A stretch of DNA of 44,140 nucleotides. It comes from a virus. Of the stretch, positions 6,993 to 39,164 are shown piece after piece. Below the pieces are notes generated by a model. That model was given only the letters and a program-made list of their open reading frames with translations. It made no database searches and was not told the origin of the DNA. Position numbers and translations under genes: made by a program. Location of the stretch: positions 1 through 44,140 of IMG/VR virus record IMGVR_UViG_3300031566_000102. One strand, 5' to 3'. Each line of letters begins with the position of its first letter. Position 1 is the first letter of the stretch.

Positions 6993-7302
6993 AATGTCTA
7001 ATTTTAACAAAGAACACAATTCATTCACTGGCTATGGCAATGGTTATGGAAATGGCAATGGCGATGGCTATGGCGGAAACGGCTATGGCGATGGCGATGG
7101 CGATGGCAATGGCGGAAATGGCAATGGATATGGCGATGGCAATGGCGATGGCTATGGCGATGGCTATGGCTATGGCGATTGCGATGGCGGAAATGGTTAT
7201 GGTTATGGTTATGGCGATGGCGGAAACGGCTATGGCGATGGCTATTGCGGAAATGGAAGTGGCAATGGCTATGGCGATGGCGATGGCTATGGCGATGGTT
7301 GA
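6985..7302 (+). CDS. Gly-rich low-complexity protein, copy 1 (105 aa)
   Basis: After the leader MSKMSNFNKE the protein is nearly pure alternating Gly-X with X being Tyr, Asn or Asp, occasionally broken by GG or a Cys. It would be disordered or a glycine-rich helix. There is no signal peptide. It overlaps the preceding gene by eight bases and has a weak RBS. Two further copies follow. The DNA is a run of GGNNAT hexamers, so other frames are also open; this frame is preferred because each copy has its own ATG, a conserved leader and a stop on the operon strand. Function unknown. Confidence 0.55.
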   Translation: MSKMSNFNKEHNSFTGYGNGYGNGNGDGYGGNGYGDGDGDGNGGNGNGYGDGNGDGYGDGYGYGDCDGGNGYGYGYGDGGNGYGDGYCGNGSGNGYGDGDGYGDG

Positions 7303-7311
7303 AACAATAAA

Positions 7312-7584
7312 ATGTCTAAAATGTCTAATTTTAACAAAGAATACAATCATTCAATAGTTAGCGGCAATGGCTATGGAAATGGCTATGGCTATGGCTATGG
7401 CGATGGCGGAAACGGCGATGGCGATGGCTATTGCGGAAATGGAAGTGGCAATGGCTATGGCGATGGCGATGGAAATGGCGGAAATGGCTATGGCGATGGC
7501 GATGGCGATGGAAATGGCGGAAATGGCAATGGCTATGGAAATGGCTATGGCGATGGCGATGGAAATGGCTATGGCGATGGTTGA
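7312..7584 (+). CDS. Gly-rich low-complexity protein, copy 2 (90 aa)
   Basis: This is a tandem copy of the gene at 6985 with the same leader (MSKMSNFNKEYN) and a different arrangement of GY, GN and GD dipeptides. It starts nine bases after the previous stop, with no clear RBS, so it depends on reinitiation if translated. The leader DNA is nearly identical to copies 1 and 3, and the hexamer tracts differ in length and order. This points to duplication followed by slippage or recombination. Confidence 0.55.
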   Translation: MSKMSNFNKEYNHSIVSGNGYGNGYGYGYGDGGNGDGDGYCGNGSGNGYGDGDGNGGNGYGDGDGDGNGGNGNGYGNGYGDGDGNGYGDG

Positions 7585-7593
7585 AACAATAAA

Positions 7594-7872
7594 ATGTCTA
7601 AAATGTCTAATTTTAACAAAGAATACAATCATTCAGTAACAACCAGCGGCTACGGCTACGGCTACGGCAATGGCGATGTCTATGGCGATGGCTATGGCGA
7701 TGGCGATGGCTATGGCAATGGCAATGGCTATGGAAATGGCTATGACGGAAATGGCAATGGCAATGGCAATGGCGATGGCTATGGAAATGGCGGAAATGGC
7801 GATGGAAATGGCGATGGCGATGGCGATGGAAATGGCAATGGCAATGGCGATGGCGATGGCAATAAAAATTAG
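7594..7872 (+). CDS. Gly-rich low-complexity protein, copy 3 (92 aa)
   Basis: This is the third tandem copy, with leader MSKMSNFNKEYNHS, a short TTSGYGYGYG stretch, and then Gly-Asn/Asp/Tyr dipeptides ending NKN. It begins nine bases after copy 2 stops. Its last residues leave the repeat and are followed by the ribbon-helix-helix gene. The role is unknown. Acidic/aromatic Gly-rich chains can phase separate or bind metal, but nothing here shows that. Confidence 0.55.
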   Translation: MSKMSNFNKEYNHSVTTSGYGYGYGNGDVYGDGYGDGDGYGNGNGYGNGYDGNGNGNGNGDGYGNGGNGDGNGDGDGDGNGNGNGDGDGNKN

Positions 7873-31831: not shown

Positions 31832-32761
31832 CTAATATGTTGTTGTTGTTATTTTAGCAATACCTGAGTTTGCTTGTCTTGTAGCTCCTATCTTGATTGA
31901 ACCCTTCATCAAAAGAGTATCATGTTTAGTTTCTTTAGCTTCAATCATTTCAAATTTGAAATCTTTTTGAATACCAAGAACTAAAGCACCTGAAGCCGAA
32001 CCATTGCTTTTTGCGTTCATCAAGTAGTTACTTCTAACTCCTGAAGAAACAGGCATCATAGCAGCACTATGTTGCGGTGATGAAGCGTAGGTTAAAATAT
32101 TGATACCTTTTAAACGTGTTAAATCTCCGTTTGAATCTTTAACGACACCAAATCCTTTTGCATAATCAGCAGAAGAGACTTCTGTTTCGCTTTCTAATAT
32201 AATTCTTTCTTGTTCAGAAGTTAAGAATAGGAGACCACTATCAGAATCAATACCGAATCCTAGAGCCATTAACTGTCTCTTAGCACTCATTAATTGGTCA
32301 AATGTGAATCCACTAGTAGCATTAACTGTAATACCGCCATCTGTTGCAAAAGTAATAGCAGAGCCAGCGTTATCTGTTGCATTAGCTTCAATAGCAGCAA
32401 TAAGAGTTCTATCAATTTGTCTCATTGCTCCAGCAGCGATTTCATCAGCTAGTTTCATCAAATATTGTTCTTTTGCTGATTGTTCGCTATTGATGTTTAA
32501 ATCAACTGGTCTGTCACATAAGTATCTATCTGTTGATAGTTTACGTCTGTTATATTCTACTTGTTGGTCATAACGTACAGATGCATAGACTTGGTTATTT
32601 TTCTCAAAATCAACGCCACCCATATCATCAAGGTATTTATATTCTCCTGAAATTGGGACAATGTCAACGTAAGGTTTTAGTTTAGCAATTCTTTGTTGTA
32701 ATTTTGTGTTTATCTCATTGTGAAATTCAATGAGCAAACCATTAGATATAATGTTTTCCAT
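31832..32761 (-). CDS. Major capsid protein, 309 aa
   Basis: The length, the position after the scaffold gene and the features fit an HK97-fold coat protein. It has a helical N-terminus (IEFHNEINTKLQQRIAKLKPYVDIVP), a beta region (VYASVRYDQQVEYNRRKLS), a spine-helix-like segment (EQYLMKLADEIAAGAMRQIDRTLI), and GLLFLTSEQERIIL with a long A-domain. It has its own promoter at 32895-32923 and an elaborate structured leader, consistent with high expression. Confidence 0.82.
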   Translation of the reverse strand: MENIISNGLLIEFHNEINTKLQQRIAKLKPYVDIVPISGEYKYLDDMGGVDFEKNNQVYASVRYDQQVEYNRRKLSTDRYLCDRPVDLNINSEQSAKEQYLMKLADEIAAGAMRQIDRTLIAAIEANATDNAGSAITFATDGGITVNATSGFTFDQLMSAKRQLMALGFGIDSDSGLLFLTSEQERIILESETEVSSADYAKGFGVVKDSNGDLTRLKGINILTYASSPQHSAAMMPVSSGVRSNYLMNAKSNGSASGALVLGIQKDFKFEMIEAKETKHDTLLMKGSIKIGATRQANSGIAKITTTTY

Positions 32762-32762
32762 G

Positions 32763-32883
32763 AATAGTCCTATATATTATTTTTAATAAACTGTAAACAA
32801 TCCAATGCTTTCGCTTCCCTGACGAACAGGACGAATTACTTAGGTTTATCAAAAAATAGGACTATTAAGTAGCTTACCCACTT
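32763..32883 (-). ncRNA. Structured 5' leader RNA of the major capsid gene
   Basis: On the minus strand a 5' hairpin (32883-32867, 6 bp) is followed by nested stems. P1 is AATAGTCCTAT (32866-32856) with ATAGGACTATT (32773-32763), 11 bp perfect. P2 is TTGATAAAC (32852-32844) with GTTTATTAA (32791-32783), 9 bp with one G-U. P3 is AATTC (32837-32833) with GGATT (32803-32799). P3 encloses hairpins CCTG/CAGG (32830-32818) and GC-GAAA-GC (32814-32807). P1 ends one base before the capsid ATG, leaving no free RBS, so folding should control translation. No ORF fits here. Confidence 0.65.
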
Positions 32884-32894
32884 TTGATATTTCA

Positions 32895-32923
32895 ATTATT
32901 ACTCTTTTTGAATTAAATGTCAA
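32895..32923 (-). promoter_or_regulatory. Promoter of the capsid/tail operon
   Basis: On the minus strand TTGACA (32918-32923), 17 bp, then AATAAT (32895-32900). The predicted start near 32888 lies just before the first leader hairpin. It sits right after the scaffold stop, giving the capsid gene an extra transcript. Confidence 0.6.
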
Positions 32924-32926
32924 ACA

Positions 32927-33760
32927 TTAATCAAATATACTACATACAGGTTTATTCATTTTTCCTGCAAGTAATATCTTTTCACTAGATAATTTCTGAT
33001 ATTCACTACTGAATGCATCCATTTTTGACATTTTCTCTCTAATCTCCATATATCTAGCCTTAGTTTCATCAAAACTAGGAGCACTTGTACCTGTATTAGA
33101 CATGGTGTCACTCTTTATATAGTCTTTATAAATACCATCAAGCATGATTGACATTGCCAATATTCCTTGGTTATCTAACTTTGAAAGAGTCGGCTTTAGA
33201 TCCTCTGGTAAATACTTTAATGCTATATTTTTAGCGTTTTCTAAAGCAACGTCCTTGCTTTCACCAAAATGTTTATCAATCAGAGTTTCAAACTCAGAGT
33301 CTTGTTGCTTCATTTTATTGTAAGCTTCAACTTCTCTTTGCTCAATAATATCAAAAAGCCCCTTAAATTGTTCAGGACGTAGTCCAATCTTATGAGCCAT
33401 CTCACGAGCATTATTGATTAAGCCTTCATCTCTTTCGTAGCCTTCGGGTAATTCCTTTTCAGGAACACTATAACCATCTACTGTTTCAGGTCTACCAATT
33501 TTATTATAAAATTTATCCCATTGTTCAGGAGAAGCTTTTTCGTCTGGTAAGAATGCTATAGCTTTACTATTTGCCTTTTCTTGTTCTTTATAAGTCTTTA
33601 ACAAAGAAGACATATCTTTATAATCTGCAAAAGATTTATCTTCTCTATAAGCCTCTGGGAGTGTACTAGAAAAACTTTCTGTTGGTTTGGTAGCTTGAAC
33701 CTCTATATTGTTCTCTACACCCTCCGCTGGGGCTTCTACTTGACTTTCTTGAATATCCAT
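32927..33760 (-). CDS. Capsid scaffolding protein, 277 aa
   Basis: The acidic, helical, charged sequence (MDIQESQVEAPAEGVENN onward) has FLPDEKASPEQWDKFYNKIGRPETVDGYSV and a long central coiled coil. These motifs (A-S-P-E-x-W-x-x-F-Y-x-x-x-G-x-P) are typical of podovirus scaffolding proteins. It would guide procapsid assembly and then leave. It lies between the 98-aa gene and the capsid gene. The capsid promoter begins four bases beyond its stop. Confidence 0.8.
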   Translation of the reverse strand: MDIQESQVEAPAEGVENNIEVQATKPTESFSSTLPEAYREDKSFADYKDMSSLLKTYKEQEKANSKAIAFLPDEKASPEQWDKFYNKIGRPETVDGYSVPEKELPEGYERDEGLINNAREMAHKIGLRPEQFKGLFDIIEQREVEAYNKMKQQDSEFETLIDKHFGESKDVALENAKNIALKYLPEDLKPTLSKLDNQGILAMSIMLDGIYKDYIKSDTMSNTGTSAPSFDETKARYMEIREKMSKMDAFSSEYQKLSSEKILLAGKMNKPVCSIFD

Positions 33761-36845: not shown

Positions 36846-39164
36846 TTAATCTCCTAAAACTTTGTTACTACTATTGTTTATAACTTTAATATTGTCGCCT
36901 TGAACATCAAGTGTATTAAATAAATATGAATAAGTCAAGGCAATAGCATCACCCTTATCAGGTGAACCTACTCCTTCCTTCTTCATATCATCTTTACTTT
37001 TTAGCAATATCTGATTGCTTAGTCTGTAGTCGTAAGTTTGTACTTGTAGTTGAAGAACTAACTCTTCATCGTTATCAATTTGCAATCCATTCTCCATTGC
37101 TTCTTTTATTCTAAACCACATTTCAGCTCTTTTGTTAGCATAAAGTAGTTTATTCTCTGCTGCTGCCCCACTATATACAGGTCTACAAGGATACTTATAA
37201 TATTTCAGGAAGTCGATTGGAGAAGAACCAACACCTATTGCATCAATGAATATGTACTTAGTTTTAAACTTATCTGCTACTTTTATTATTTCTTGTGCCA
37301 GTTGATGACCATCTTGGCTTTTAAACTTTAACACTGCCATTATCCTGTCACCTTGTCTAACCGCTATAATTGAGCTATCTCTACCCTCTCTTGCAACATC
37401 AACACCAATAATAGCACAGAACCTCATATAGTTTTGTGATTCAAAGCTTAATGATTTATTGATTAATTCACTTGGTATTACTGTTCTCGTGCTTGAGTTT
37501 TGGAATGCTTCATAAATTGTTGCTGGATATTCTTGCCTAAATTGTCTTAATCCATCAGAAAAGAAGCTTATCTTGTTTCTACGCCAAGCCATTTGTTCGT
37601 CATCAAGGTCGTATGTTTTTTTGTATTCTTCCTCATCTTCATCTAATTTAAAGTTTTCTGATAATTTTAGTCTATATTCGTCTTGCCAGAACCAAGGGAC
37701 AAATATTAGCTCATATTCATTTTTTCCAGCGATTGCATCCATACAGTACTTATGAAACATGTTACCAAGACCATTAGCGGTACTTTCAAGAATTATTTCT
37801 GTCTCGTCCATATCAGGCACAGTCTGCATTAGCCCTGTTTGCAACTCTTCGGTATTTTTCATAAAAGCTACTTCTGACATGTGCAGATATTGAACTGTAT
37901 CAGACCGTCCAACGTTGCCACTTCCAGCAGTTCCGACTCCATAACCACTGTTTAAAATATCAAAGGATAATTCTTTCGCATTTGAAACACCAGTGCTGGG
38001 CTTTATAGCAAGAGGACAGTTATCATGAAAATTCTTCACCTTGCCATAGATAACGGAAGTTGCGTCATCTCTATGTGTAACGATAAAACTTTTAATCCCT
38101 TTTCTATGTATGATTTTCCAATAGTAACGACCTGCTACATAAGTTGAGTTATGAGAAACAAGCCCATTACAAATAAAAGTCTTCTCGCTTGTTTGTAAAT
38201 CTATGACTTTTCGTTCTCCAAGAGGTTTTATAGAAGTCACTTTTGCCCATGCTTGAAAGCCTTCACAAGTCTTAGGCAGTTTTTTACCATTAAATAACTC
38301 TCTTGTGATAAATCTTGATGGACGTGTTAGAATCAAAAGCTTTATAACATCACTAATTCTATCTACTCTTAAAGTGTGTATCTCTTTGTTACCTAGTTTA
38401 GAACTAGTGCCAGCCTTTCTTTTATCAATGCAAGTATAATAATGAATATTATTGTCTTTTAAATATTTGTGCATTCTGTCTAATACATCGCCTTTGCGTT
38501 GGCTAACTCCAATTCTGACTTCAGGATTAGCTCCAAAACTTCCTTCACCGTCTAGCATACCACTAAACCAACCATCCTCAAACGTCTTTTCTCTTTCTTC
38601 TGGCTTGTTGCATAATACACGGATATAATCACCAACCTTTGTATTATTAACTTCTCTCCATTCCGCTCTGTCTCCTCCCCTCTGTTTGCACAAATGCCTA
38701 TGTTCACCAGTTACTACAAGTTTCACTCCTGTGTCTGTTATAACTTCGTAGGTTTGTTTAGTAAGATATGCCTTAGCTTCTATGACTGCTGTTCTAATCT
38801 TTCTTGTTGCTTTTCTTCCTGCCTTGTTTAGCTCTCCAGTATTTTCATCAACTGCAATAATTTTTTCTCCAATCTCTAAATCTTTGATTTGTTTCCATTG
38901 GTAGTTTGCAGTTAATACTTTCGTTTCTGGCGAATAACAACATCCTTGTTGACGCCCCTTCAAAATTATAGCTCTTACTCTTCCTCTCTCTCTCCTCTGC
39001 TTCTCTATTCTCATATGGATATATCTTTGAGCTTGATTCATCTCAAACTTAAGAAGCTGTCCGTCCTTAGTTCCGCCCTTAGTTCTGATTAATAGAGCAT
39101 TTTTTGCAAAGTATCTAAAATCATCTTTTAATCGCTGTCTTTTCTTTTTTTCTTCTTGTTTCAT
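36846..39164 (-). CDS. terL: Large terminase subunit interrupted by an intein, 772 aa (508 after splicing)
   Basis: Walker A GRQQGC-ST is split by the intein: residues 70-75 precede it and 340-341 follow. The ATPase continues with YLHMSE (426-431) as Walker B and LESTANG (459-465) as coupling motif. The nuclease domain has GVDVAREGRD (588-596), FIDAIG (639-644) and SPDKGDAIALTY (734-745) supplying acidic residues. It packages DNA into the prohead and cuts it. The ATP site cannot form until the intein is removed, so splicing is essential for activity. RBS GAAGGTAG precedes the ATG. Confidence 0.92.
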   Translation of the reverse strand: MKQEEKKKRQRLKDDFRYFAKNALLIRTKGGTKDGQLLKFEMNQAQRYIHMRIEKQRRERGRVRAIILKGRQQGCCYSPETKVLTANYQWKQIKDLEIGEKIIAVDENTGELNKAGRKATRKIRTAVIEAKAYLTKQTYEVITDTGVKLVVTGEHRHLCKQRGGDRAEWREVNNTKVGDYIRVLCNKPEEREKTFEDGWFSGMLDGEGSFGANPEVRIGVSQRKGDVLDRMHKYLKDNNIHYYTCIDKRKAGTSSKLGNKEIHTLRVDRISDVIKLLILTRPSRFITRELFNGKKLPKTCEGFQAWAKVTSIKPLGERKVIDLQTSEKTFICNGLVSHNSTYVAGRYYWKIIHRKGIKSFIVTHRDDATSVIYGKVKNFHDNCPLAIKPSTGVSNAKELSFDILNSGYGVGTAGSGNVGRSDTVQYLHMSEVAFMKNTEELQTGLMQTVPDMDETEIILESTANGLGNMFHKYCMDAIAGKNEYELIFVPWFWQDEYRLKLSENFKLDEDEEEYKKTYDLDDEQMAWRRNKISFFSDGLRQFRQEYPATIYEAFQNSSTRTVIPSELINKSLSFESQNYMRFCAIIGVDVAREGRDSSIIAVRQGDRIMAVLKFKSQDGHQLAQEIIKVADKFKTKYIFIDAIGVGSSPIDFLKYYKYPCRPVYSGAAAENKLLYANKRAEMWFRIKEAMENGLQIDNDEELVLQLQVQTYDYRLSNQILLKSKDDMKKEGVGSPDKGDAIALTYSYLFNTLDVQGDNIKVINNSSNKVLGD
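38148..38939 (-). mobile_element. Intein with LAGLIDADG homing endonuclease domain in TerL
   Basis: The 264-residue intein spans TerL residues 76-339. It starts with Cys (CYSPETKVLTA) and has block B-like VVTGEHRHLC. It ends with FICNGLVSHN followed by Ser, giving the His-Asn end and a Ser nucleophile as +1. A single LAGLIDADG-type motif (WFSGMLDGEGSF, 199-210) and following helices indicate a homing endonuclease, likely acting as a dimer or decayed. It interrupts the Walker A loop between Cys75 and Ser340, a highly conserved target. Confidence 0.9.

Follow-up and report, generated by a model that had tools for sequence, protein, structure and literature searches.

The leader of the major capsid gene in this viral genome can form two mutually exclusive RNA folds, one of which buries the Shine-Dalgarno (SD) sequence, and capsid leaders of related podoviruses share a conserved RNA built from two modules, A and B. 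These features are all evident by computation. The reading we prefer, with a probability of roughly 0.6, is that the leader acts in cis as a translational switch between the two folds. From the modelled structures we infer that such a switch operates in the cell, and in which direction. It would probably set the timing or the amount of shell protein made.

The capsid leader and its two predicted folds

The window analyzed here is a 44,140-base viral record with 33% G+C. Its podovirus late genes lie on the minus strand and include TerL with an intein, portal, a scaffold-like gene, the capsid gene, and tail tubular proteins. The structured leader sits inside a 165-nt gap on this strand, separating the scaffold-like gene from the capsid gene. 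The gene it would control (31832-32761, minus strand) encodes the major capsid protein (PF19821, 4.7e-19; phrog_3437, 'major head protein'). The upstream gene (32927-33760, minus strand; phrog_3742) occupies the scaffold or assembly-protein position and resembles annotated scaffold/protease genes of three relatives (L002, L004, and L005) and of HTVC010P. A sigma-70-like promoter, TTGACA-17-AATAAT (32923-32895), agrees with the consensus at 11 of 12 positions, the best in 2.2 kb. Its -35 box (TTGACA, 32918-32923, minus strand) and -10 box (AATAAT, 32895-32900, minus strand) are predictions by consensus match and place the predicted transcript start at about 32888. Elsewhere in the late region, the TerL gene (36846-39164, minus strand) carries its intein (PF14890, 6.7e-10, residues 88-339) directly before the S-T of the Walker A region.

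Folding of 32763-32883 (minus strand) yielded -35.4 kcal/mol, compared with -20.0 +- 3.6 for dinucleotide shuffles (z = -4.31; 1 of 200 shuffles as good). This bears out the claim of a first-pass annotation that so ordered a structure is unlikely to be chance. The whole 168-nt leader gave z = -3.37. As expected of an inverted repeat, the plus strand of 32763-32883 likewise folds well (z = -3.30), so the strand is given not by energy alone but by covariation in relatives. In a GC-corrected energy scan of the full record (15-nt steps), the capsid leader was absent from the top 25 positions. Stronger folding was found in repeats at 7.0-7.8 kb and in a hairpin at 1.2-1.3 kb. The former (7029-7863) folds more strongly than any other part of the record by a wide margin. 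It is rich in GC and made up of degenerate repeats of 6/12/39 bp (GGCAAT/GGCGAT/GGCTAT), and both strands carry overlapping ORFs there. The latter (1216-1336) lies where gene blocks diverge and consists of an extended AU-rich hairpin with a CCCCCCC...GGGGGGG stem after it (about -44 kcal/mol); it may be a terminator or an element resembling an origin.

The minimum-energy fold is dominated by P1, an 11-bp helix ending one base short of the capsid ATG. Its 5' arm, AAUAGUCCUAU (32856-32866, minus strand), serves as the anti-SD, and its 3' arm, AUAGGACUAUU (32763-32773, minus strand), carries the SD AGGA (32768-32771, minus strand). The length and position of P1 had been described correctly at first reading, as had the inaccessibility of the SD when folded: the probability that the capsid SD is unpaired is ~0, compared with 0.19-0.92 at 17 other SD sites of the same record. 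Among random upstream sequences matched in composition, 0.2% contained a complement to the SD as good as P1 (p = 0.002). The stems originally listed (11, 9, 5, 4, and 2 bp) are right in outline and inexact as helices, which measure 11, 12, 11, 5, and 2 bp, with a further 5' hairpin of 6 bp (AAGUGG-GUAAG-CUACUU; 32867-32883, minus strand). Moreover, this multi-stem structure is only one of two competing folds.

The second, earlier fold contains two hairpins. Hairpin A (UAUCAAAAGUGG-GUAAG-C...G-U-CC-UAUUUUUUGAUA; 32847-32889, minus strand) begins at the predicted transcript start and takes the place of the 5' hairpin. It is the minimum-energy fold of the first 49-105 nt (p ~0.02 for the hairpin alone). 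Hairpin B (UUCG-U-CC-UG(UUCGU)CA-GG-GAAG-CGAA; 32810-32835, minus strand) was located by a covariance model, a regular expression, and position. Its conserved 3' strand, engaged through UUCG/CGAA pairing, comprises the bases that had been assigned to a 2-bp stem with a GNRA loop (GC-GAAA-GC), and that mini-stem is therefore probably wrong. Because the 5' arm of P1 is the 3' half of hairpin A, the two folds are mutually exclusive. When successive prefixes were folded from the predicted start, hairpin A had appeared once they reached nt 49 and hairpin B once they reached nt 81; the SD-hiding fold took over only at nt 113-129. The late fold reaches -36.0 kcal/mol, compared with -19.8 kcal/mol when the SD is open and B is formed (hairpin A then forming unconstrained), making the early fold ~16 kcal/mol weaker. 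Both the prefix folds and these energies are results of an energy model and not kinetics.

A two-module RNA before podovirus capsid genes

The closest capsids with available sequence belonged to MW202485 (27%) and eight IMG/VR contigs. We extended this set to 23 loci, termed here the 'freshwater' group, a label and not a habitat assignment. Their capsid leaders share an RNA composed of module A (GACGGGUAGC-hairpin-GUCC), a middle hairpin, module B (CGUCC-hairpin-GGGUAGCG), and then the SD. The internal loop of both modules follows one motif, in which GUAG faces U, or AUAC/ANAA faces C. The family form of B is UCG-U-CC-hairpin-GG-GUAG-CGA, generalized as UCG-Y-CC-hairpin-GG-RUAS-CGA; module A is defined by the same loop motif in the opposite orientation, near the transcript 5' end. 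Some freshwater members use AUAC/C throughout for GUAG/U, such that the first bulge base and its partner change together (G.U to A.C). A promoter-like site lies beside module A in some relatives (11/12 in L102, and in several 9/12, a score that 14% of shuffles reach), and we consider promoter conservation among these leaders moderately supported.

A probe for the 16-base core of B (TCGTCCN{7,11}GGGWAGCGAA) matched 97 viral stretches in the viral_contigs collection. In 42, a PF19821-type capsid ORF began 14-53 nt after the end of the core; the 14-nt spacings reflect a wrong internal start, and the distance to the annotated capsid ATG is otherwise 29-53 nt. Most belong to a second, marine group, S. 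Its capsids share 65-69% identity with the capsid of pelagiphage HTVC010P, whereas identity to the freshwater group is just ~25-29%. In group S, module A reads CAGG-ANAA-GC-GNAA-GC-C-CCUG or CCAG-AUAA-CC-NNNN-GG-C-CUGG, the middle hairpin is present, and B is the same as in the freshwater group.

Covariation in homologous capsid leaders, proposed as a check when the structure was first noticed, is present in this family. For B (27 sequences), 96.3% of cells were paired and 43 cells had changed on both sides, a result equaled by 0 of 500 shuffles and lost when partners were slid by 1-3 columns. For A, the middle hairpin, and B together in group S (14 sequences), there were 8 covarying pairs and 23 cells with both sides changed, a cell count that none of 500 shuffles reached. 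The full-length freshwater alignment of ten sequences gave a weaker, concordant signal. This covariation applies to the family; for P1 itself, no close relative of the leader was found that would allow the comparison. Searches of viral_contigs, phages, and genome_contigs returned no close homologue of the leader, and the capsid and tail tubular B proteins, each used alone as a query, retrieved no relatives. A search with TerL found a 95% relative (L007), a fragment ending before the capsid gene. The sequences in a six-way capsid alignment were too divergent to serve as a search query.

Rfam 15 covariance models matched neither the leader nor its relatives at gathering thresholds; the only sub-threshold results were miRNA-like and caiA chance matches, far below gathering. 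Module-like structures could also be read by eye in other phages. Vibrio phage VP5 (L127, 350-430) shows both modules (GAGGGUAGC..GUCCUC and GAGUCC-GGAAAC-GGGUAGCUC), and cultured phages of Vibrio, Alteromonas, and Yersinia (L127-L129) apparently carry one or both in their capsid leaders. The latter phages offer good laboratory systems for this RNA. HTVC010P-type pelagiphages (L006, L117-L123) have a capsid leader of ~100 nt with only a B-like hairpin (GCC-hairpin-GGAGAAC). A covariance model of B (R2) had no match in the HTVC010P-type leaders or VP5, where the modules are visual assignments. Separately, in freshwater leaders such as L002, L087, and L107, the strand CAGAU(A)AC has two alternative partners, AUCUG in the middle hairpin and GUAUC downstream of B. 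Covariation is seen for each pairing at one and the same column, a hint that these leaders contain a second internal switch.

Probable placement of the leader within the family and pairing of its SD

The leader studied here is likely a diverged homologue of the A/B RNA family, judging from sequence comparison and position. When the R2 model, from which the leader had been excluded, was run over both strands of the record, its best match was 32804-32839 (minus strand; 9.6 bits, E = 1.8). The chance of a single best match landing on this strand of the 165-nt gap is ~0.2%. A model of the freshwater group (R1) ranked the leader tenth (6.3 bits, E = 9.3); as R1 fails to single it out, homology rests on the B model, the regular expression, and position. 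A pattern for B had one match in the 44,140-base record and 23 in 200,000 random leaders. The combined A+B pattern had one match across both strands of the 44 kb and none in 200,000 random leaders, a partly post hoc figure, since the A part was loosened by one base after the leader sequence was known. The position also fits the family, directly upstream of a PF19821 capsid gene, with hairpin B ending 48 nt before the capsid ATG (32761) compared with 29-53 nt in relatives.

In detail, the leader's predicted hairpin A pairs GGGUAAGC with the GUCC of the conserved motif, with one extra base, and its hairpin B deviates once from the family form, with GAAG for GUAG. Ahead of another capsid gene, L201 reads UUCGUCCUGUUAGUAGGGUAGCGAAA, compared with UUCGUCCUGUUCGUCAGGGAAGCGAAA in the leader. 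The motif strands of the leader are separated by 25 nt, compared with 28 nt in L107, with no clear covarying middle hairpin, and its prefix folds included none of the family type.

In 19 freshwater leaders, which represent fewer than 19 independent events because some are closely related, hairpin B is complementary in its interior to the leader's own SD region. The score was 16.4, compared with 12.3 +- 0.6 for swapped partners (0 of 20,000) and 10.2 for shuffled loops, and the pairing shows compensating changes. As for burial of the SD, our leader and 14 freshwater-type leaders had a median unpaired probability of 0.20, compared with 0.49 for 126 other genes (p = 1.7e-5). The location of the anti-SD differs, being hairpin B in the freshwater group and hairpin A in this leader. 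The SD of group S is not buried (median 0.65), and we rejected SD hiding as a general rule for the family.

Proposed mechanism, alternatives, and significance

Our model for the leader is as follows. Hairpins A and B, each with a GUAG/U-type loop, would form during transcription and leave the SD strand free, an early fold that would permit capsid translation. The SD strand, made last, would then pair with the 3' half of hairpin A as the 11-bp P1, collapsing the leader into one long SD-hiding hairpin and blocking translation. Capsid output would be set by whatever holds A and B, whether a protein on the twin motif, a translating ribosome, or time. Our first guess at the trigger is feedback from one of the phage's head proteins, capsid or scaffold. 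As the early fold is the weaker by ~16 kcal/mol, the RNA should end in the off state when it has no partner. A translational switch was among the roles suggested in the first-pass annotation, and it is supported by the SD buried in the end-state fold, the compensated SD burial in the freshwater relatives, and the competing folds.

The main rival is an operator that works without refolding, in which A and B form a double site whose occupant, a phage protein (capsid, scaffold) or one from the host, sterically excludes the ribosome, with P1 secondary. Group S favors this explanation: the twin internal-loop motif is kept in both groups while SD hiding is not, and B ends 29-53 nt before the annotated capsid ATG. 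Against an operator of this kind stand the partner-specific SD complementarity of freshwater leaders and the unusually good match of P1 to the SD (p = 0.002), and we regard it as the less likely account, though a serious one.

Less probable still, the leader could be an AU-rich palindrome independent of the family, arising by chance or as a DNA-level inverted repeat, and perhaps acting as a constitutive weakener of translation. Its weak family scores (6.3 and 9.6 bits) and the good folding of both strands are compatible with this. Nevertheless, the best family match in the record falls in the leader on the correct strand, and the A+B pattern occurs there once and in none of the random leaders. 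We find it doubtful that the leader is instead an element for mRNA processing or stability, its long hairpin being an RNase III substrate or 5' stabilizer. Processing sites in T7 mRNA are hairpins cleaved by RNase III, and the late fold is a nearly continuous long hairpin at the predicted transcript 5' end. Yet what is conserved is not a long duplex but short hairpins carrying a specific internal loop, and SD-specific pairing in relatives would be left unexplained. Finally, a small RNA processed from this region to act in head assembly or packaging, a further early suggestion with which a phi29 pRNA-like length (~120 nt) and a location between head genes agree, found no positive evidence and is very improbable, given that the SD and start codon belong to the structure, that in relatives the RNA stays in cis ahead of the capsid gene, and that Rfam has no match.

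Structured leaders that control translation are already known in kind. Translational operators include the MS2 coat hairpin, those of T4 gp32, RegA, and gp43, and the leaders bound by L1, S8, and S15. Like these, the capsid leader has structure around the start codon of a gene for a structural or assembly protein, with the SD in or beside the structure; unlike them, it has two copies of one internal-loop motif and an exclusive SD-hiding fold, and the gene it would control encodes the major capsid protein of a tailed dsDNA phage. With riboswitches and other bistable leaders it shares two exclusive folds, one burying the SD, and an early fold predicted during transcription, but it is without a known ligand and absent from Rfam 15. 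The T7-type RNase III hairpins are likewise long hairpins in podovirus late-gene leaders, whereas this family has conserved short modules with a bulged motif and covarying SD pairing. The phi29 pRNA is also a structured podovirus RNA of ~120 nt, but the capsid leader lies in cis before the capsid gene, includes the capsid SD, and has no sequence or family match to it. We found no description of the A/B RNA family, its motif, or its link to podovirus capsid genes in searches of open-access papers or in Rfam 15.

Tailed phages have to match the production of several hundred capsid subunits to that of scaffold and portal. To our knowledge, how capsid is balanced against these proteins post-transcriptionally is poorly known. 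We tentatively suggest, as a possibility well short of an expectation, a widespread class of RNA switch in which the twin GUAG/U or AUAC/C motif binds a head protein and competes with an SD-hiding fold, coupling capsid translation to head assembly. With the capsid-leader RNA, the known RNA families would gain one whose internal-loop motif is new. Its conservation in freshwater and marine podoviruses, and its appearance by eye in the isolated Vibrio cholerae phage VP5, would make the question of capsid balance testable in culturable phages.
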